This document shows, piece after piece, positions 34,028 to 42,398 of a stretch of DNA of 64,000 nucleotides. The notes beneath the pieces were generated by a model that did not search any database, was not told where the DNA came from, and saw only the letters and a program-made list of their open reading frames with translations. Location: the NCBI RefSeq assembly GCF_000152745.1, contig NZ_CH672428.1, positions 988,916-1,052,915 on the forward strand, written 5' to 3'. Numbering within the stretch: position 1 is the stretch's first letter; each line of letters starts with the position of its first letter. Source of the DNA: Oceanicaulis sp. HTCC2633. Lineage in GTDB: Bacteria > Pseudomonadota > Alphaproteobacteria > Caulobacterales > Maricaulaceae. The translations under genes were made by a program, and so were the position numbers.

Positions 34028-34861
34028 TTAGCCGCCGAAAAGATTGAGGATTATCTGAGGCTCGGAGTTGGCGATCGACAGCGCCTGAACGCCCAGCTGC
34101 TGCTTGACCTGAAGGGCCTGCAAGCGTGCGGATTCCTTGGCGAGATCGGCGTCCACCAGATTGCCCACGCCTTCGGTCAGACTGTCAGTCAGCTTGCCCA
34201 CAAAGGTGCGGTGGGCTTCCATCTTCTTGAGGTCTGAGCCCAGATTGGCCAGCGCCTGGTTCACATTGTCGAGGCTGGTCTGGATGGCGCTGACCACATT
34301 GCCCGCCAGCGTGACGGTCCCGAGGCTGGCGTTATTGGCCAGGGTGATGATCGCGCCGGAAATGGACAGGTTCTGGCCTTCAAGCGTCACGGACCGCGTC
34401 GCGTCCGCATCGGCAAGGAAGGCAATGCCGTTCGTCAGGGAGCCATTGAGCAGGTTCGCGCCGTCGAATTCGGCGTTGGTCAGGATGACCTGCACCTGAT
34501 CCAGCAGCTCCTTGAAGTCGCTGTCATAGGCCTGACGGGAGAAGGTGTCGATTGAAGGGTCCAGCGCCGCGGTCGCCTTCTCCCGCATCTGGATGAGAAG
34601 GTCTGAGATGGACTCCCCGGCCGCGATGGCCACGTCGCCGATCGAGACCGCCCGGTCGAGCGAGGACTTCACAGAGCCCAGTGCGCCGATATCCGAGCGC
34701 ATGCCCTGCGCCACAGCGTACACCGAGGAATTGTCCTTCGCGCCCGCAACGCGCAGGCCGGTGTTGATCTTGTTCTGAACGCCCTGGATGTCCTCATTGG
34801 TCTTGTTGAGGTTCTGCAGGGCGATCATCGCCGAGGTGTTGGTGTGGACGCTGAGCGCCAT
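34028..34861 (-). CDS. Flagellin, divergent paralogue A
   Basis: 277 residues from the ATG at 34861 (GGGAGA upstream); an upstream start at 34954 adds an unlikely N-terminus. Conserved D0/D1 regions: SVHTNTSAMIALQNLNKTNEDI, AGAKDNSSVYAVAQGMRSD and C-terminal DADLAKESARLQALQVKQQLG, LSIANSEPQIILNLF. It is the most diverged of the five flagellins in the middle and at the N-terminus. It has its own sigma-54 promoter and lacks the two-hairpin leader of copies B-E. Minor or hook-proximal flagellin is a possible role. Confidence 0.95.
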   Translation of the reverse strand: MALSVHTNTSAMIALQNLNKTNEDIQGVQNKINTGLRVAGAKDNSSVYAVAQGMRSDIGALGSVKSSLDRAVSIGDVAIAAGESISDLLIQMREKATAALDPSIDTFSRQAYDSDFKELLDQVQVILTNAEFDGANLLNGSLTNGIAFLADADATRSVTLEGQNLSISGAIITLANNASLGTVTLAGNVVSAIQTSLDNVNQALANLGSDLKKMEAHRTFVGKLTDSLTEGVGNLVDADLAKESARLQALQVKQQLGVQALSIANSEPQIILNLFGG

Positions 34862-34920
34862 TGGTCTTCTCCCGATTGCAATTCTGCGCCGCATTCGACG
34901 GCCGCTCATCACAGTTAGGA

Positions 34921-34935
34921 GCAATCCATGGGCCA
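34921..34935 (-). promoter_or_regulatory. Sigma-54 promoter of flagellin A
   Basis: Minus strand TGGCCC-ATGGA-TTGC; the GG and GC pairs and spacing are correct. Predicted start near 34909, 48 bases before the ATG. Confidence 0.78.
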
Positions 34936-35575: not shown

Positions 35576-36403
35576 TTACCGGAAGTAACCCAGGATGTTG
35601 CTCGGCGCAGAGTTCGCGATCGAGAGCGCCTGGGTACCCAGCTGCTGCTTGACCTGCAGCGACTGGAGACGGGCGGATTCTTTCGCCAGGTCTGCGTCGA
35701 CCAGGTTGCCGATGCCTTTTTCCAGAGAGTCAGACAGTTTGCCCACGAAGGTCTTGTGGACTTCCAGAGACTTCGAGCCGGTGCCCAACTTGGCCAGAGC
35801 CGTGTTGAGGTTGTCCAGCGAGGTTTCAATGGTGGCAACCAGACCGGAGGCCGCCGCGGCCGTGGTGAACGACGCCGTCGCCGCCACAGTCACGTTGGTG
35901 CCGCCCAGCGACATGATTTCCTGACCCACATTGAGGGTGTTGGAGCCGTCAGCATTGGCCAGAGCCGAGATGCCGCCGGTTTGCGTGCCGTTGATCAGGT
36001 TGGTGCCATTGAATTCGGCATTCGCCACGATGGTGCCGATCTGGTCACGCAGCGCCTTGAAGTCTTCGTTCAGGGCATTGCGCGATGCGGTATCCAGAGA
36101 GGAGTCCGCGCCAGCCAGCGCCTTTTCCTTCATTTCCACCAGAAGATCGGAGATCGCTTCACCTGCAGCCAGAGCCACGTCCACAGTGGACTGCGCCAGG
36201 TCGAGAGACTGACCCACCGCTTTGTAGCCCGCCACGTCGGCGCGCATCGACTGGGCGATGGCGAACACGCCGCCATTGTCCTTGGCCGAGCTGATCGCCA
36301 GGCCGGTGTTGATGCGCTGTTGAACCTGCTGCAGATCCTTGTTGGTCTGGTTCAGGTTCTGGAGGGCGACCATGGCCCCCGGGTTGGTATTGATCGTCGC
36401 CAT
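35576..36403 (-). CDS. Flagellin, paralogue B
   Basis: 275 residues. Starts MATINTNPGAMVALQNLNQ and ends SLQVKQQLGTQALSIANSAP; both D0/D1 ends are nearly identical to copies C and D. The middle (about 150-190) differs. The AAGGAGCCAAGAA ribosome-site segment is shared with C and close to that of D. It is the last gene of the tandem D-C-B set, and no sigma-54 promoter was found in the 107 bases in front of it. No cysteine. Probably a major filament subunit. Confidence 0.97.
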   Translation of the reverse strand: MATINTNPGAMVALQNLNQTNKDLQQVQQRINTGLAISSAKDNGGVFAIAQSMRADVAGYKAVGQSLDLAQSTVDVALAAGEAISDLLVEMKEKALAGADSSLDTASRNALNEDFKALRDQIGTIVANAEFNGTNLINGTQTGGISALANADGSNTLNVGQEIMSLGGTNVTVAATASFTTAAAASGLVATIETSLDNLNTALAKLGTGSKSLEVHKTFVGKLSDSLEKGIGNLVDADLAKESARLQSLQVKQQLGTQALSIANSAPSNILGYFR

Positions 36404-36424: not shown

Positions 36425-36459
36425 CCGTTTCTACGGGTACGACGCACTTTTTGTGCGAC
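36425..36459 (-). other. Two-hairpin flagellin leader, copy before flagellin B
   Basis: In the mRNA sense: hairpin 1 CGCAC-AAAAA-GTGCG (36443-36457) then hairpin 2 CCGT-AGAA-ACGG (36425-36436), followed 14 bases later by the ribosome site. Both stems are perfect. The loops match those before flagellins C and D, while hairpin 1 stem bases differ in compensating pairs. Confidence 0.7.
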
Positions 36460-36464
36460 ACTTC

Positions 36465-36498
36465 CGAAGGCGGGCCATTTTCTATGAGCCCGCCTCCG
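36465..36498 (-). terminator. Imperfect hairpin between flagellins C and B
   Basis: AGGCGGGC / GCCCGCCT 8-base stem with further pairing after one mismatch, just after the flagellin C stop. It lacks a T-run, so it may be an RNA-stability or processing structure rather than a true terminator. Confidence 0.45.
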
Positions 36499-36510
36499 AA
36501 GCCTTAGGGA

Positions 36511-37335
36511 TTACCGGAAGTAACCCAGGATCGAGCTCGGCGCAGAGTTCGCGATCGAGAGCGCCTGCGTGCCCAGCTGCTGCTTGACCTGCAGCGACTG
36601 AAGACGGGCGGATTCTTTCGCCAGGTCTGCGTCGACCAGGTTGCCGATACCGCGCTCCAGTGCGTCAGACAGTTTGTTGACGAACGTGGAGTGGATCTCC
36701 AGAGACTTCGAGCCGGTGCCGAGGCGGGCCAGCGCGGAGTTCAGATTGTCCAGAGAGGTCTCGATCGCAGACACCGCAGCATTCGCCAGGGTGGTCGTGT
36801 TGATCTGGGAACCCGCCGTCAGCGTGATCGTGGTGCCGGTCAGGCTGAGGTCTTCCGCACCGATGGTGATGGTGTTGGAGCCGTCAGCATTGGCCAGCGC
36901 CGTGATGTCGGTCGCGCCATTCTGGATGAGGTTGGTGCCGTTGAACTCCGCGTTCGCCACGATGGTGCCGATCTGGTCACGCAGCGCGGTGAAGTCTTCG
37001 TTCAGGGCATTGCGGGACGCGGTGTCCAGCGAGGTGTCTGCAGACGCCAGCGCCTTCTCTTTCATTTCGACCAGCAGGTCGGAGATGGCTTCGCCGGCGG
37101 CCAGCGCCACGTCCGTGGTGGACTGGGCCAGATCCAGCGACTGGTTGACGGCCTTGTAGCCCGCCACGTCTGCACGCATCGACTGGGCGATGGCGAACAC
37201 GCCGCCATTGTCCTTGGCCGAGCTGATCGCCAGGCCGGTGTTGATGCGCTGTTGAACCTGCTGCAGATCCTTGTTGGTCTGGTTCAGGTTCTGGAGGGCG
37301 ATCATGGCCCCCGGGTTGGTATTGATCGTCGCCAT
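36511..37335 (-). CDS. Flagellin, paralogue C
   Basis: 274 residues, closest to copies B and D: MATINTNPGAMIALQNLNQTNKDLQQVQQRINTGL (in part) at the N-terminus and SLQVKQQLGTQALSIANSAPSSILGYF (in part) at the C-terminus. The middle carries SLTGTTITLTAGSQINTTT. Middle gene of the D-C-B array, preceded by the two-hairpin leader but by no recognisable sigma-54 promoter. Probable major filament subunit. Confidence 0.97.
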   Translation of the reverse strand: MATINTNPGAMIALQNLNQTNKDLQQVQQRINTGLAISSAKDNGGVFAIAQSMRADVAGYKAVNQSLDLAQSTTDVALAAGEAISDLLVEMKEKALASADTSLDTASRNALNEDFTALRDQIGTIVANAEFNGTNLIQNGATDITALANADGSNTITIGAEDLSLTGTTITLTAGSQINTTTLANAAVSAIETSLDNLNSALARLGTGSKSLEIHSTFVNKLSDALERGIGNLVDADLAKESARLQSLQVKQQLGTQALSIANSAPSSILGYFR

Positions 37336-37355
37336 TTCTTGGCTCCTTCAAGTGT

Positions 37356-37390
37356 CCGTTTCTACGGGTGAGACGCGCTTTTTGCGCGCC
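37356..37390 (-). other. Two-hairpin flagellin leader, copy before flagellin C
   Basis: In the mRNA sense: hairpin 1 CGCGC-AAAAA-GCGCG (37374-37388, extended to 37372-37390 with a wobble) then hairpin 2 CCGT-AGAA-ACGG (37356-37367). Compared with copy B, the A-T pair in hairpin 1 is replaced by G-C, a compensated change; loop bases are unchanged. Confidence 0.72.
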
Positions 37391-37446
37391 GGAGATCCGG
37401 CGACCGCGCCATCTTCTATGACGCCGCCGCCGAAACTGGGTTTGAA

Positions 37447-38271
37447 TTACCGGAAGTAACTCAGGATCGAGCTCGGCGCGGAGTTCGCAATCGAGAGCGC
37501 CTGCGTGCCCAGCTGCTGCTTGACCTGCAGCGACTGGAGACGGGCGGATTCCTTGGCGAGGTCCGCGTCGACCAGGTTGCCGATGCCCTTCTCGAGAGCG
37601 TCAGACAGCTTGGTGACAAAGGTGGAGTGGATTTCCAGAGACTTCGAGCCGGTGCCCAGGCGCGCCAGCGCCGAATTGAGCGTATCCAGACCCGCTTCGA
37701 TCGCCGCCACAGCAGTGCTAGCGGCCGCCACGGAGTTGATCTCGGTCGCCGTGCCGATGGACAGGGTGCCGCCGGTCAGGCTGAGGTCTTCCGCACCAAT
37801 GGTGATGGTGTTGGAGCCGTCCGCATTGGCCAGCGCCGTGATGTCGGAGGCGCCGTTGGCGATCAGGTTGGTCCCGTTGAATTCCGCGTTGGCGACAATG
37901 GTGCCGATCTGGTCGCGCAGCGCCTTGAAGTCTTCGTTCAGCGCATTGCGGGACGCCGTGTCCAGAGACGCATCCTTGGAGGCCAGAGCCTTTTCTTTCA
38001 TCTCGACCATCAGGTCGGAGATGGCCTCACCCGCCGCCAGAGCGACGTCGACCGTCGACTGGGCCAGGTCCAGCGATTGCGACACGGCGCTGTAGCCGGC
38101 CACGTCAGCACGCATGGACTGGGCGATGGCGAACACGCCGCCATTGTCTTTGGCAGAGGAGATCGCAAGACCCGTATTGATCCGTTGCTGGACCTGCTGG
38201 AGGTCCATGTTGGTCTTGTTCAGGTTTTGCAGGGCGATCATCGCGCCCGGATTGGTATTAATCGTCGCCAT
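37447..38271 (-). CDS. Flagellin, paralogue D
   Basis: 274 residues: MATINTNPGAMIALQNLNKTNMDL at the N-terminus, LQSLQVKQQLGTQALSIANS near the C-terminus. First gene of the tandem D-C-B array. It has the strongest promoter region of the set: a sigma-54 element at 38351-38365 and three palindromic sites further upstream. Probable major filament subunit. Confidence 0.97.
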   Translation of the reverse strand: MATINTNPGAMIALQNLNKTNMDLQQVQQRINTGLAISSAKDNGGVFAIAQSMRADVAGYSAVSQSLDLAQSTVDVALAAGEAISDLMVEMKEKALASKDASLDTASRNALNEDFKALRDQIGTIVANAEFNGTNLIANGASDITALANADGSNTITIGAEDLSLTGGTLSIGTATEINSVAAASTAVAAIEAGLDTLNSALARLGTGSKSLEIHSTFVTKLSDALEKGIGNLVDADLAKESARLQSLQVKQQLGTQALSIANSAPSSILSYFR

Positions 38272-38285
38272 TTCTTGGCTCCTGT

Positions 38286-38324
38286 AACGTTTCTACGTTT
38301 GATGTGACGTGCTTTTTGCGCGTC
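38286..38324 (-). other. Two-hairpin flagellin leader, copy before flagellin D
   Basis: In the mRNA sense: hairpin 1 GACGCGC-AAAAA-GCACGTC (38306-38324, one C-A mismatch) then hairpin 2 AACGT-AGAA-ACGTT (38286-38299). Hairpin 2 keeps the AGAA loop, but the stem changes from CCGT/ACGG to AACGT/ACGTT with both sides altered. Confidence 0.72.
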
Positions 38325-38350
38325 AGACCTTCTGGTCCGCGTACTAAGGA

Positions 38351-38365
38351 GCAAAGCTGGGGCCA
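38351..38365 (-). promoter_or_regulatory. Sigma-54 promoter of flagellin D (and probably C, B)
   Basis: Minus strand TGGCCC-CAGCT-TTGC, correct GG/GC spacing. Predicted start near 38340, about 68 bases before the ATG, so the leader RNA contains both hairpins. Confidence 0.8.
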
Positions 38366-38455
38366 GATTCACCCTTTGCTGCAGGATCGCCCCCTAAGCC
38401 ATTGATTGTTCGTCGAGCGGCACATGGAAATCCGTTTACCCTACGCGTGCAGCGC

Positions 38456-38510
38456 GGCAGTTCTTGCCGGTTCGAGCAGGCAAATATTGCCGGGCGCGGC
38501 ACTTTTTGCC
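38456..38510. promoter_or_regulatory. Three GGCA-N5-TGCC palindromes upstream of flagellin D
   Basis: Exact palindromes at 38456-38468 (N5 GTTCT), 38479-38491 (AATAT) and 38498-38510 (CTTTT), starts 23 and 19 bases apart. They lie about 115-170 bases upstream of the sigma-54 start site, in the expected enhancer position. They explain most of the structure in the 338-base gap 38272-38609, which holds no gene. Confidence 0.62.
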
Positions 38511-38560
38511 GAGAGAGGCGCGTCGCCAGACGTTTGATTTGGTTAATGAAATATTGAAGC

Positions 38561-38595
38561 AAAGAAAAAGCCGGGATTGCGGCAGCAATCCCGGC
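38561..38595 (-). terminator. Terminator of flagellin E
   Basis: GCCGGGATTGC / GCAATCCCGGC, 11-base perfect stem with a GGCA loop, followed on the minus strand by TTTTTCTTTG. It directly follows the flagellin E stop. Confidence 0.92.
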
Positions 38596-38609
38596 CCGAT
38601 CCGTTCGCC

Positions 38610-39437
38610 CTAGCCGAAATAGGACAGAATCGACTGCGGCTGCTGGTTGGCGATCGAAAGCGCCTGAGTGCCCAGCTGCTGCTTGACCTGCAGCGCCTGC
38701 AATTCAGCAGACTCCTTGGCCAGATCCGCATCGACAAGATTGCCGATCCCGACTTCCAGAGCGTCGGAAAGTTTTGTGACAAACGTGGAGTGGATCTCCA
38801 GCGACTTGGATTTGGTGCCCAGACGCGCGAGCGCCGAGTTCACCGAATCCAGCGTGGTGCCGATCTGAGAGGCGATATTGCTGGCCTGGGTGGCGGTCGC
38901 GAACGACGCCGTGGCCGACAGGGACACGATCGAGCCGGAGAGCGACATGTTTTCCGCACTCACGGTGATGGTGTTCGAGCCGTCCTGATTGGCCAGCGCC
39001 ACGAATGAGTTGGTCGAACCATCGATGAGGTTCACGCCGTTGAACTCGGCATTGCTGACGATCGTGGAAATCTGCTGACGCAGAGCTTTGAAGTCTTCAT
39101 TCAAAGCACTGCGGCTCGCCGTATCCAGGGATGCGTCTGACGCCGCCAAGGCCTTCTCATTCATCTCGATCAACAGATCCGAGATCGCTTCGCCGGCGGC
39201 AAGCGCAACGTCGAGCGTCGCTTCGCCCCGGTCCAGAATCTGACCGACAACCCCATAGCCTGAAACCTGGGAGCGCATGCGCTGGGCGATGGCGTAGATG
39301 CCGCCATTGTCCTTTGCGCTGGACACTTCCAGACCGGTGTTGATCCGGTTCTGTGTGGTTTGCAGGTCCATATTGGTCTTGTTCAGATTTTGGAGCGCGA
39401 TCATGGCTCCAGAGTTGGTGTTCACAGAAACGATCAT
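38610..39437 (-). CDS. Flagellin, paralogue E
   Basis: 275 residues from the ATG at 39437 (GAGGAA upstream, MIVSVNTNSGAMIALQ); an upstream start at 39530 is unlikely. C-terminal AELQALQVKQQLGTQALSIA and QPQSILSYFG. More diverged than B-D, including SASDASLDTASRSALNEDF and a distinct middle. It has its own sigma-54 promoter, leader hairpins and terminator. flaF and flbT lie upstream on the same strand. Confidence 0.96.
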   Translation of the reverse strand: MIVSVNTNSGAMIALQNLNKTNMDLQTTQNRINTGLEVSSAKDNGGIYAIAQRMRSQVSGYGVVGQILDRGEATLDVALAAGEAISDLLIEMNEKALAASDASLDTASRSALNEDFKALRQQISTIVSNAEFNGVNLIDGSTNSFVALANQDGSNTITVSAENMSLSGSIVSLSATASFATATQASNIASQIGTTLDSVNSALARLGTKSKSLEIHSTFVTKLSDALEVGIGNLVDADLAKESAELQALQVKQQLGTQALSIANQQPQSILSYFG

Positions 39438-39449
39438 TGTGGGGTTCCT

Positions 39450-39500
39450 CCGTTCTGGAAGCGAACGGCCTGTTCTTGGCCGGCGGACATTTTGTCCCGC
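39450..39500 (-). other. Two-hairpin flagellin leader, diverged copy before flagellin E
   Basis: In the mRNA sense: hairpin 1 GGAC-AAAAT-GTCC (39485-39497, with flanking GC pairs) then hairpin 2 CCGTTC-GCTTCCA-GAACGG (39450-39468), again directly before the ribosome site. The A-rich loop of hairpin 1 is kept; hairpin 2 keeps the position and stem but not the AGAA loop. Confidence 0.6.
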
Positions 39501-39510
39501 TCTAGCCAGA

Positions 39511-39525
39511 GCAATCCCCATGCCG
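39511..39525 (-). promoter_or_regulatory. Sigma-54-like promoter of flagellin E
   Basis: Minus strand CGGCAT-GGGGA-TTGC keeps GG and GC at the correct distance. Predicted start near 39499, 62 bases before the ATG. Degenerate GGCA/TGCC half-sites occur further upstream (39620-39648). Confidence 0.68.
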
Positions 39526-39655: not shown

Positions 39656-40012
39656 TCAGCCCCCCGAGGGGGAAAGGCCCTGCATGATGGTGCGGTTGAT
39701 ATCGATCAGCGTTTCGACATCGGTCTCGCCGCGCATCGCAGCGCTCGTCTCTTTGGAGACAAAAATGGACAGCGAGATGATCCCGGCGCGCAAGGAGTCG
39801 GGCAGATTATTGTGAGAGCTTGCGCAATCCGCCGCAAAGGCGGACCAGACCCGCCGGTTCCGGTCCAGCGCTGCAACGCGCTGGCGAATCTCGGACTTGG
39901 GCGCATCCCGCACTTCCATGAGCCCGCGCGTCACCTCGCCCAGCAGGCGGTATTCCGTCTGACGCGGATCTTCTGTGCGCGAAGATGCGGTTTTATAGGC
40001 CTGGTACGACAT
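39656..40012 (-). CDS. flaF: Flagellar biosynthesis regulator FlaF
   Basis: 118 residues. The FlaF family is recognised by YQAYKTASSRTEDPRQTEYRLLGEVTRGL (in part), RRVWSAFAADCASSHNNLPDSLRAGIISLSIFV (in part). FlaF is needed for flagellin production and acts together with FlbT. It follows flbT by 15 bases and probably shares its transcript. Confidence 0.95.
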   Translation of the reverse strand: MSYQAYKTASSRTEDPRQTEYRLLGEVTRGLMEVRDAPKSEIRQRVAALDRNRRVWSAFAADCASSHNNLPDSLRAGIISLSIFVSKETSAAMRGETDVETLIDINRTIMQGLSPSGG

Positions 40013-40027
40013 GAACGCTTCGCCTCT

Positions 40028-40429
40028 TTAAGCCCCGTCCGGTCCAGCCAGAAGCTTGGCTTCGTACTGGATCAGCTTCCGGCAACGCAGCAACGCCTTG
40101 TAGAACTCCCCCGCCATGACCTCGCGGCTTACTGACACGCATTCGGACAGGACTTCCGACGAGCCCACGGCGTTCATGAACTCTGTCATACGCAGGACGA
40201 ACTCGTCATATAATCCGTCCTGACTGGTTGATGAGAGGTACATCATCATGACCGGGAAATAGATGCGCTTGGCCGGGGTATCGACTTCATGCTCCTGCAT
40301 GATGTCCTTTTCCCGCAGGACGCTGGCCTTGTTCTGCAGCACCAGGGTCGCCCGGCGGTCCCCGTTTTCAACGACGGCGCCGTTCAGAACGAACTTCTCA
40401 CCCGGCTTCAAAGAAAGCTTTAGCGGCAT
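40028..40429 (-). CDS. flbT: Flagellin mRNA regulator FlbT
   Basis: 133 residues: MPLKLSLKPGEKFVLNGAVVENGDRRATLVLQNKASVLREKDIM (in part) is the FlbT core, then FPVMMMYLSSTSQDGLYDEFV. In Caulobacter FlbT is known to bind the 5' untranslated region of flagellin mRNA and to repress it until the hook is complete. The four hairpin leaders reported here are natural candidate targets. First gene of flbT-flaF. The 163-base gap upstream to the glycosyltransferase holds no gene. Confidence 0.96.
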   Translation of the reverse strand: MPLKLSLKPGEKFVLNGAVVENGDRRATLVLQNKASVLREKDIMQEHEVDTPAKRIYFPVMMMYLSSTSQDGLYDEFVLRMTEFMNAVGSSEVLSECVSVSREVMAGEFYKALLRCRKLIQYEAKLLAGPDGA

Positions 40430-40595
40430 GGCTGGTCTGACCCTTCATCGTCGGCGCGGCCCGACGGTCACCGACCTCGCCACTCAAGCAGGACAGAATG
40501 AAGAAACCGTTGCTGAGCCGCAGTCGCTCATTATTAGCACAACCTTAATCGAACCATCCGTTGCTGGCCTCGTAAACTGCAAGGGATAATGCGTG

Positions 40596-42398
40596 ATGAG
40601 CGAATTGCTCGATCTTGAAGCTGAGCTGGCGGCTGGAGAAGAAGAGGCCGTCCGCATCATTCAGGGCCGGCGCGACGAAGCCGCCTCCACAGAAGTTCAG
40701 CGCGCCCTGTCCTCGGCCAAGAGCAAGGACGACAATCTGCCCCCCAAGGCGATCGGCCTGCTCAAGCGCGCCATGAAGATTGTCGATGATGATCGCGCCG
40801 CAGCGGCGAAAGCCGCCAAGCTGTGTCTGGATGCGGTGGATATTGCGCCGGAAAGCTCTCTGGCGAACCATGCGCTCGCAATCTGTCTGGAAAGACTCGG
40901 GCGCCTGGCCAAGGCGCTGCAATTTTACGAACGCGCCTGGCAGTTCAATCCGCACAATTCGGAGATTTATCTCAACCTGGCCATGCTGGCGTGGAAGCTG
41001 GACATGCTGCCGGCGGCGGAAAAATTCCTGAGGCTGTTCGTGCAGATGGCGCCCAACCACCCTGCGGGGGTGATCAATCTGTCCGGCGTCCTGCGAGATC
41101 AGGGCAAGTTCGAGGATTCCATCGAGATTCTGCGCGCCGCGATCTACGCCAATCCCGAGGAGAAGGATTTCTGGAATTCTCTCGGCACGACGCTGCTCGA
41201 AAAGGGCGAACCCGATCAGGCCCTGACCTTCTATGCCGAAGCGTTGCGTCTGCAGCCCGACTTCGCGCGCGCCCACCATAACACCGCCTTCGCCTATGAG
41301 CTCCTGGGCGAACCGGAAAAGTCCGCCCATCATTTCCGCGAGGCCCTGAAGACCGCCGCCTCCCAGAAGGACGTGATCATCATGTCCCATGGCCTGGCCC
41401 AGTCCCTGCTGGCGCTCGGCGAGCTTGAAGAGGGCTGGGAGCTCTACAAGAGCCGGCTGGAGCCCGAATACTCCCAGGTCACCCATTTCCTGATCGACGC
41501 CCCCCGCTGGGATGGCGATGACGTCGATGCATTGCGCGGCAAGAAGGTGCTGTGGGTCGGCGAACAGGGGCTGGGCGACGAGATCCTGTTCCTGCAGCTC
41601 GGTCGGGACCTCATCGACGCCATCGGCCCGGACGGCCAGCTTTACATCGCCGTCGAAAAGCGACTGATGAGCATGGTTCAGGCTACCTATCCCGAAGCCA
41701 TCGTCGGCTCCCACCGCACCATCAAGCGCGAAGGCAAGGATTTGCGCGGCGTGACGGGCTTTGAAGACGGGCTGAAGTTCGATTTCTGGACGCCCTTCGG
41801 TCAGCCCGCACGCGCGTTTCGGACCTCGCTGGACTCTTTCGCCAAGACGCCGACGCTTCACCCGCCGCAAGCCGACGTGGATCACTGGCGTGAAAAGCTG
41901 GCGGAACTGCCCGAAGGCCTCAAGGTCGGGATTCTGTGGAAGTCGCTGAAGATGGACGCCAAGCGCTCCAAGCACTTCTCGGCCTTCGAACTGTGGAAGC
42001 CTGTCCTCAAAACGCCCGGCGTCACCTTCGTGAACCTGCAGTACGGGGATGCGGAAGAGGATATCGCCTTCGCCAGGTCAAAGTTCGGCGTGGATGTGCA
42101 CACGCTGGACGGCATCGATCTGAAGAATGACCTCGATCAGGTCACGGCGCTGGCAAAGGCCTGCGACATCGTCATCGGCCCCACCAATGCCACCACCTCG
42201 CTCGGCGCCGCGGCCGGCGGCAATATCTGGTATATCCACCCCCATGGCCGCATCTGGAGCCATATGGGCGCCGGCCGTTCGCCCTGGTTCCCCACGGCGC
42301 GATCCTTCTTCGGCAAGGGCTATGCGGACTGGATCGCGATCCTCAAACAGGTCGCGCGTGCGCTGGCTGAGGAAGTCGAAGCCGCAAGAGCCGCCTAG
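40596..42398 (+). CDS. FlmG-like TPR glycosyltransferase for flagellin
   Basis: About 600 residues from the ATG at 40596 (a GTG three bases upstream is an alternative; AAGGGA precedes both). Residues about 80-290 are TPR repeats (AKALQFYERAWQFNPHNSEIYLNLAMLAWKLDML in part, GTTLLEKGEPDQALTFYAEAL). The C-terminal half is a GT-B-like glycosyltransferase domain with WVGEQGLGDEILFLQLG, VGILWKSLKM and CDIVIGPTNATTSLGAAAGG. The same TPR plus transferase layout is known from Caulobacter FlmG, which attaches pseudaminic acid to flagellins. The location beside flbT-flaF and the pse genes supports this role. Confidence 0.88.
   Translation: MSELLDLEAELAAGEEEAVRIIQGRRDEAASTEVQRALSSAKSKDDNLPPKAIGLLKRAMKIVDDDRAAAAKAAKLCLDAVDIAPESSLANHALAICLERLGRLAKALQFYERAWQFNPHNSEIYLNLAMLAWKLDMLPAAEKFLRLFVQMAPNHPAGVINLSGVLRDQGKFEDSIEILRAAIYANPEEKDFWNSLGTTLLEKGEPDQALTFYAEALRLQPDFARAHHNTAFAYELLGEPEKSAHHFREALKTAASQKDVIIMSHGLAQSLLALGELEEGWELYKSRLEPEYSQVTHFLIDAPRWDGDDVDALRGKKVLWVGEQGLGDEILFLQLGRDLIDAIGPDGQLYIAVEKRLMSMVQATYPEAIVGSHRTIKREGKDLRGVTGFEDGLKFDFWTPFGQPARAFRTSLDSFAKTPTLHPPQADVDHWREKLAELPEGLKVGILWKSLKMDAKRSKHFSAFELWKPVLKTPGVTFVNLQYGDAEEDIAFARSKFGVDVHTLDGIDLKNDLDQVTALAKACDIVIGPTNATTSLGAAAGGNIWYIHPHGRIWSHMGAGRSPWFPTARSFFGKGYADWIAILKQVARALAEEVEAARAA

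Follow-up and report, generated by a model that had tools for sequence, protein, structure and literature searches.

ARAA-loop hairpins in the flagellin leaders of Oceanicaulis sp. HTCC2633, probable recognition sites for FlbT

The flagellin cluster of Oceanicaulis sp. HTCC2633 raises the question of what the protein FlbT may recognise on a flagellin mRNA. The cluster was analysed within a stretch of 64,000 nucleotides (contig NZ_CH672428.1, positions 988,916 to 1,052,915 of the forward strand), referred to here as the window, which carries five flagellin genes (A to E) together with genes for FlaF and FlbT. Reviews, in the parts available, report that FlbT binds the 5' untranslated regions (5' UTRs) of flagellin mRNAs in Caulobacter; the same parts call the mechanism of FlbT unresolved or unknown and give no recognition motif. 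Comparison of the leaders in the window with those of related genomes revealed a repeated hairpin with the loop ARAA (R, purine). We consider it likely that the leaders of flagellins B to E carry arrays of such recognition hairpins, which would be bound by FlbT together with an unexported flagellin of the FljJ type, and that flagellin A would escape.

The preliminary description of this locus, made from the letters alone, had placed two hairpins before each of B, C, and D, one with an AAAAA loop (hairpin 1) and one with an AGAA loop (hairpin 2). Both could be located at the positions claimed on the minus strand, and the compensated stem changes were real, with A-U replaced by G-C in hairpin 1 and C-G by A-U in hairpin 2. 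A third, 5'-most hairpin had been overlooked in these leaders; B, C, D, and E have three hairpins each. The stems of hairpin 1 were intact in B and C, but that of D contains a C-A mismatch which had gone unmentioned. The two loops had also been read as separate types; their sequences were right, but AAAAA and AGAA are one element, A-R-A-A(-N). The hairpins are as follows.

36469..36494, minus strand: B leader hairpin 0, CAT-AGAAA-ATG at the tip (from sequence)
36441..36459, minus strand: B leader hairpin 1, CGCAC-AAAAA-GTGCG (sequence and fold)
36425..36436, minus strand: B leader hairpin 2, CCGT-AGAA-ACGG (sequence and fold)
37406..37425, minus strand: C leader hairpin 0, CAT-AGAAG-ATG (from sequence)
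37372..37390, minus strand: C leader hairpin 1, CGCGC-AAAAA-GCGCG (sequence and fold)
37356..37367, minus strand: C leader hairpin 2, CCGT-AGAA-ACGG (sequence and fold)
38324..38339, minus strand: D leader hairpin 0, CGGACC-AGAA-GGTCTG, 11 nt past the -12 element (sequence and fold)
38306..38324, minus strand: D leader hairpin 1, GACGCGC-AAAAA-GCACGTC, with one C-A mismatch (sequence and fold)
38286..38299, minus strand: D leader hairpin 2, AACGT-AGAA-ACGTT (sequence and fold)
39485..39498, minus strand: E leader hairpin 1, GGAC-AAAAT-GTCC; the minimum-energy fold pairs A with T, leaving the loop AAA
39466..39482, minus strand: E leader hairpin 2, GGCC-A-AGAAC-A-GGCC (minimum-energy fold)
39447..39461, minus strand: E leader hairpin 3, CTTCC-AGAAC-GGAGG, whose 3' arm contains the Shine-Dalgarno sequence (minimum-energy fold)
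34888..34902, minus strand: the one hairpin of the A leader, loop CGAAT, outside the ARAA class

The leader of E had been given as a diverged version with the stem CCGTTC/GAACGG. This stem (39450-39468) can form, but the minimum-energy fold gives three ARAA-class hairpins instead. The alternative stem, with the loop GCTTCCA on the minus strand, competes with hairpins 2 and 3 in E and in several relatives, and a switch that frees or hides the Shine-Dalgarno sequence is possible. The sequence CCAGAA(N)GG was found in 47 of 58 E-type leaders.

Since the folding energies of the four leaders (B to E) alone were only moderately better than those of shuffled sequences (z from -1.4 to -2.5), the case for the hairpins rests on comparison. 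Leaders were drawn from the flagellin clusters of relatives and from 80 named FlbT loci. Strong-hairpin loops were counted, with no loop preselected, in 130 leaders of relatives and window (130 of 140 open reading frame (ORF) rows were used). The commonest were AAA (37), AGAA (27), AAAAC (18), AGAAC (17), GAA (16), AAAAA (14), and GCTTCCA (13), the last being the loop of the alternative stem in E. ARAA was part of 132 loops, whereas 20 rounds of dinucleotide shuffling gave 9.85 on average. The opposite-strand loop TTYT stayed at background (1 vs 2.15 in the shuffles), and the ARAA signal is therefore stranded.

For the counts by flagellin type, 18 partial ORFs and five without a start were dropped, and 306 leaders were collapsed to 263, comprising 198 of the B-E type and 65 of the A type. 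An anchor test was conducted on the 198 unique Caulobacterales B-E leaders, in which every ARAA was taken regardless of pairing and the 3' arms were permuted in 300 rounds, a procedure that leaves kinship among the sequences in place. A stem of at least four pairs could be observed at 268 of 491 ARAA sites, compared to a permuted mean of 31.9 and a maximum of 49. Of 701 ARAA sites in the coding sequence of these genes, 6 were stemmed (permuted 24.4). The control anchors gave 12/217 for G[AG]AA (permuted 7.8), 5/98 for A[CT]AA (3.1), and 6/76 for TTYT (3.1); C[AG]AA (27/269; permuted 12.5, maximum 24) and T[AG]AA (11/109; permuted 5.1, maximum 11) were modestly elevated. The pair closing the loop was C-G in 290 of 354 hairpins, and the commonest loop-to-loop spacing was 16 and 17 nt. 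Leaders from other genera and families carry these elements on different stems.

Covariation was further evaluated by tree-aware simulation. Among 64 B/C/D leaders, a pair in hairpin 1 ranked first (CG 25, GC 22, AT 6, TG 2), with an E-value of 0.00 in 100 simulations. That selection maintains a structured RNA whose loop is fixed, as proposed earlier, is well supported by the shuffles, the anchor permutations, the counts by flagellin type and of tandem pairs given below, and one tree-aware pair. On this comparative evidence, the element can be described as a stem of at least four pairs, usually closed by C-G, with the loop A-R-A-A or A-R-A-A-N. The hairpins typically stand two or three in a row, the last often adjoining or overlapping the Shine-Dalgarno sequence.

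A promoter could be recognised, with a hairpin behind it, in 121 leaders. In 103 of these the distance from the TTGC of the -12 element to the first hairpin is 10-14 nt, which places this hairpin at about the expected 5' end of the sigma-54 transcript. Searching both strands of 1.245 Mb (the window and the 80 loci) revealed 126 tandem pairs. No more than 110 nt separates 124 of them from the start of a flagellin gene downstream; the other two lie elsewhere and are both GGCA-like. FlbT is at the centre of each of the 80 loci, so the rate does not apply to whole genomes. Within the window, 11 minus-strand ARAA hairpins with a stem of at least five pairs were found, seven of them at 36.4-39.5 kb; two of these seven (38464 and 38506) lie upstream of the D promoter, outside any leader. 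On the plus strand there were three, elsewhere.

A tandem-hairpin covariance model (R1) was built from 17 windows picked for stems of at least four pairs. Its pair counts are circular, the windows having been chosen by stem, and carry no weight here. Searched against the own genome (G000), R1 gave eight matches at E-values up to 10, namely hairpins 1 and 2 of the E leader at the top (E-value 0.011), the leader of fliK (0.30), and six weaker ones. R1 thus recovered the E leader first but missed those of B, C, and D, and is therefore too insensitive for defining a regulon. Across the class, 12 of 289 genomes matched at an E-value of 0.05, eight of them with FlbT. Three of the 12 places (G000, G219, and G296) lie just upstream of a listed flagellin place, and the other nine match none.

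Flagellin A is nearly exempt from the element. With types assigned by best hit, at least one ARAA hairpin was present in 7 of 65 A-type leaders compared to 178 of 198 B-E-type leaders, which have one to four each. A sigma-54 type promoter was found in 47 of the 65 A-type leaders, and the motif TTAACCAT, which we take to be CtrA-like, lies upstream in 19/65 A-type and 7/198 B-E leaders. According to PMC7591256, FljJ of Caulobacter is 49% identical to the other flagellins and is expressed under CtrA; it was the only flagellin to bind FlbT when tested by two-hybrid assay, and translation of the remaining flagellins is reported to be under its control. Flagellins B to E are mutually 70-88% identical, and A is 55-59% identical to them; from its sequence, A is probably an FljJ-type regulatory paralogue.

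The occurrence of the element was compared with that of FlbT across the class outside Caulobacterales, with a single flagellin leader for each genome, in most cases though not in all the best-scoring one. This covered 54 of 58 flagellin-bearing genomes with FlbT and 46 of about 67 without. ARAA hairpins were present in 24/54 leaders with FlbT and 1/46 without, and CCAGAA(N)GG at the Shine-Dalgarno sequence in 9/54 and 0/46. Either element was found in 28/54 vs 1/46 (p 7.6e-9, uncorrected for kinship), or, counted by taxonomic family, in 21/36 vs 1/36.

Another loop was more frequent in the genomes without FlbT. Hairpin loops of the form A(N)GGA are of the CsrA type, and these were present in 1/54 leaders with FlbT and 12/46 without; all 12 belong to the 36 FlbT-less genomes with CsrA and none to the 10 with neither protein. 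At CsrA-encoding loci without FlbT (e.g. L246, L250, L251, and L198), GC-AGGA(A)-GC-like hairpins occur in 12/36 leaders and CCA(A/T)GTAGGAG is frequent at the Shine-Dalgarno sequence, as expected of CsrA sites. FlbT and CsrA are almost mutually exclusive. Among 289 class genomes, FlbT was detected in 99 and CsrA in 56, and both in two (G146 and G266) compared to 19.2 expected, uncorrected for kinship. The 100 flagellated genomes examined comprise 53 with FlbT only, 36 with CsrA only, one with both, and 10 with neither. CsrA (PF02599) had no match in the genome of Oceanicaulis sp. HTCC2633.

The layout of the locus is as follows.

34028..34861, minus strand: flagellin A (ORF, Pfam Flagellin_N), candidate FljJ-type regulatory paralogue
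35576..36403, minus strand: flagellin B (ORF, Pfam Flagellin_N)
36511..37335, minus strand: flagellin C (ORF, Pfam Flagellin_N)
37447..38271, minus strand: flagellin D (ORF, Pfam Flagellin_N)
38610..39437, minus strand: flagellin E (ORF, Pfam Flagellin_N)
39656..40012, minus strand: FlaF (PF07309, E-value 7.9e-36)
40028..40429, minus strand: FlbT, the proposed partner (PF07378, E-value 6.6e-45)
34921..34935, minus strand: sigma-54 promoter-like site of flagellin A (pattern match)
38351..38365, minus strand: sigma-54 (-24/-12) promoter-like site of flagellin D, probably of a D-C-B operon (pattern match)
39511..39525, minus strand: sigma-54 promoter-like site of flagellin E (pattern match)

FlaF and FlbT are thus encoded near the flagellins (39656-40429), and the nearest FlbT among the 80 named loci listed, that of Oceanicaulis sp. 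MMSF_3324, is 97% identical. Flagellins B, C, and D are tandem copies with 82-88% identity. The pattern scan found no sigma-54 site of their own upstream of B and C, and the single minus-strand terminator-like site in 34-40.5 kb lies after E (38597-38568). Because sigma-54-like sites precede A, D, and E and none precedes B or C, and because the only minus-strand terminator-like site follows E, E probably has a transcript of its own, and D-C-B probably form one operon. About 90-146 bp upstream of the D promoter-like site, three palindromes of the form GGCA-N5-TGCC (CGGCAAGAACTGCCG, GGCAATATTTGCC, and CGGCAAAAAGTGCCG) lie on the minus strand at 38455-38511. They are a candidate FlbD (ftr) enhancer array; two of the three have ARAA inside, and all stand outside the leader.

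The structural flagellin genes here have a structured 5' UTR, as expected of FlbT-controlled leaders of the Caulobacter type. The likeness to the FlbT-bound 5' UTR of Caulobacter crescentus extends to the protein family, the kind of target gene, and the 5' UTR position, and here FlbT is encoded beside the flagellins. The available review accounts of that organism contain no motif, whereas here a repeated ARAA-loop hairpin could be defined by comparison. For Caulobacter, some of the leader structure may be in print already (Anderson and Gober 2000). FlbT or a FlaF-FlbT pair had been suggested as the reader of the leaders; FlbT is supported by association only, through its co-occurrence with the element across the sampled class and the near-absence of the element from the FljJ-like paralogue, and nothing pointed to FlaF as an RNA binder.

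FlbT binding, a co-repressor role of A at this locus, and an effect on decay are what we infer. FlbT, together with an unexported FljJ-type flagellin, here probably A, would bind the loops of the B-E mRNAs, and the bound protein would block translation initiation or ribosome loading and would expose these mRNAs to decay. Flagellin A would escape because its leader is without the loops. When the hook-basal body is ready, FlaF would hand the FljJ-type protein to the export gate; upon its export, FlbT would release the mRNAs and the structural flagellins could be translated. Hairpins acting as probable landing sites of FlbT would explain how flagellin production is held back until export is possible. 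Such a reading would join the published Caulobacter biology to a concrete RNA code. Since that code occurs in several copies and is mostly absent from the FljJ-type gene, recognition by FlbT becomes directly testable, and the ARAA loop could serve as a search signature for FlbT regulons.

Several observations weigh against recognition by FlbT as set out here. The one leader examined was negative in 26 of the 54 genomes with FlbT, which means that the code either extends beyond ARAA or is not shared by all. In one genome (G089) the hairpin is present and no FlbT was detectable even at an E-value of 10, and its congener (G219) has two FlbT genes. The presence of FlbT follows phylogeny, and the p values ignore kinship. 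Four of the 12 class matches of R1 lie in genomes without FlbT. In the tree-aware test, the hairpin-1 pair was the single significant one in the B/C/D alignment, and no stem pair was significant in the E-type or A-type alignments. In B, C, and D the Shine-Dalgarno sequence lies outside the last hairpin. The A type is not entirely without the element, as 9 of 57 ARAA sites in A-type leaders were paired (permuted 2.6, maximum 7), and the assignment of A as FljJ draws on divergence and the TTAACCAT motifs, not on comparison with the Caulobacter sequence.

Part of this evidence is shared by an account in which the hairpins are real RNA elements read by another RNA-binding protein or an RNase, or are mere stabilising 5' caps, the link with FlbT reflecting common descent of a single flagellar system. 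A hairpin at the 5' end can by itself protect an mRNA, and the first hairpin lies at about the transcript start; the FlbT co-occurrence is confounded by phylogeny, and the hairpin of G089 stands without detectable FlbT. In a plain cap the loop would have no need to be constant, yet here it is, and the stems vary. Moreover, further copies extend down to the Shine-Dalgarno sequence, and the FljJ-type gene is mostly without the loops despite often having the same kind of promoter. We therefore regard this account as unlikely, while giving it more weight than those that follow.

The sites could also act in DNA, as ftr enhancers, the inverted repeats to which the sigma-54 activator FlbD binds and which can also stand downstream of a promoter. 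The arms of ftr sites are of the CGGCA..TGCCG type, and the palindromes at 38455-38511 look like an ftr array, two of them containing ARAA. A DNA-binding protein needs fixed arms, and those of the leader hairpins change with compensation; the loop is constant on just one strand, with TTYT near background (1 vs 2.15 loops and 6/76 vs 3.1 sites). The leader hairpins lie at the expected start of the transcript or beyond it, and no separate sigma-54 site precedes B or C. Within the region, CGGCA..TGCCG is confined to 38455 and 38497, which are upstream of a promoter, and the ftr identity was rejected for the leaders. Downstream ftr elements are on record for Caulobacter, to judge by the title of one reference; even so, such a role for the leader hairpins is highly improbable. 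Marginally less probable still are intrinsic terminators or attenuators between the tandem genes, or by-products of recent gene duplication. Tandem copies as similar as B, C, and D could inherit shared leaders without function, but the terminator scan of 34-40.5 kb found nothing at the leader hairpins, the one minus-strand site being that after E, and the same elements recur in other genera and families with different stems.

A comparable control of flagellin mRNA is that by CsrA with FliW, in which a small protein repressor binds hairpin-loop sites, including the Shine-Dalgarno region, and changes partner with flagellin. FlbT resembles it as a small repressor with hairpin-loop sites including the Shine-Dalgarno sequence and with partner switching with flagellin, all of which is proposed for FlbT. 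It differs in that the loops in the window are ARAA(N) and not A(N)GGA, and in having about 90 residues beyond the CsrA-like stretch. CsrA folds as a domain-swapped beta dimer. The analogy itself is already in print, FlaF/FlbT being called possibly analogous to FliW/CsrA in the available part of PMC4894983.

The N-terminus of FlbT, L-K-L-x-L-K-P-G-E ... V-L-R-E-K-D-I, resembles alphaproteobacterial CsrA, L-x-L-T-R-K-x-G-E ... V-L-R-R-E. Profile comparison (hhalign) of FlbT against CsrA gave 45% probability with an E-value of 2.2e-4 when 30 diverse FlbTs were used, and 4% with a narrow alignment of close FlbTs only. None of 150 column-permuted profiles reached the score of 25.4 (mean 10.7, standard deviation 2.0, maximum 19.1). 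The first 50 alignment columns of FlbT alone gave 59% and the rest 1%; FlbT without Caulobacterales gave 24%, and FlaF 0.2%. No CsrA match to FlbT was found in the Pfam or NCBIfam libraries, and hmmsearch of the PDB with the FlbT profile found neither a CsrA nor an FlbT structure. Relatedness of FlbT to CsrA is thus suggestive, not established. It is possible, though we would lean slightly the other way, that FlbT is a diverged CsrA, with a CsrA-type RNA-binding domain in its N-terminal 40 or so residues, a flagellin-sensing C-terminal region, and a loop code that moved from A(N)GGA to ARAA(N). Flagellin control in Alphaproteobacteria would then use one of two nearly exclusive relatives, each with its own leader hairpin code, and the FlbT regulon of Oceanicaulis may include the hook-length gene fliK. 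The loop code itself suggests that FlbT is interchangeable with CsrA, and perhaps related to it, as a means of tying flagellin synthesis to export. The matches listed from the open full-text literature indicated neither an FlbT loop motif nor an FlbT-CsrA homology.

Another RNA linked to flagellin genes is the flg-Rhizobiales RNA. It likewise has three stem-loops, and its visible loops, judged from the ends of the model only, are GGGA and UGCGC, unlike ARAA here. The available parts of two papers describe the three stem-loops (PMC3765529) and the occurrence of the RNA (RF01736) in Rhizobiales (PMC2864571). Identity with RF01736 was rejected, as there was no match in the window at the gathering score and none in 34-41 kb at E-values up to 5; Rfam as a whole gave nothing relevant in either. 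Across the class, under stricter filters, 0/289 genomes scored above the cut-off and two matches were sub-threshold, so the sample offers no true RF01736 member for comparison.

A possible further target lies outside the flagellin genes. The gene fliK (PF02120), which diverges from flgK, is preceded by a sigma-54-like site and, after it, two ARAA-kind hairpins on the minus strand (G000:C1:2803059-2803099; L278), its start being taken as the ATG just 3' of the hairpins; the R1 match to this leader is not significant by itself. The flgK start could be located in 14 of 30 loci only. By eye, the tip of the second hairpin, GCAAAANGC, was present in 12/12 (the own genome and 11 relatives of the same genus), with a mismatched stem. 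The first hairpin met a strict call in 4/12, and its loop varied among AAAAN, GAAAG, CCAAA, and TCAAA (L296-L309). Two loci of other genera (L310 and L311) did not show the hairpins. fliK may thus be regarded as a candidate additional FlbT target and no more. On the plus strand of the window, divergent from flbT, a long gene at 40593-42398 encodes a tetratricopeptide repeat (TPR)-like protein, and at a guess, prompted by PMC7591256, it is a candidate FlmG-like flagellin glycosyltransferase.

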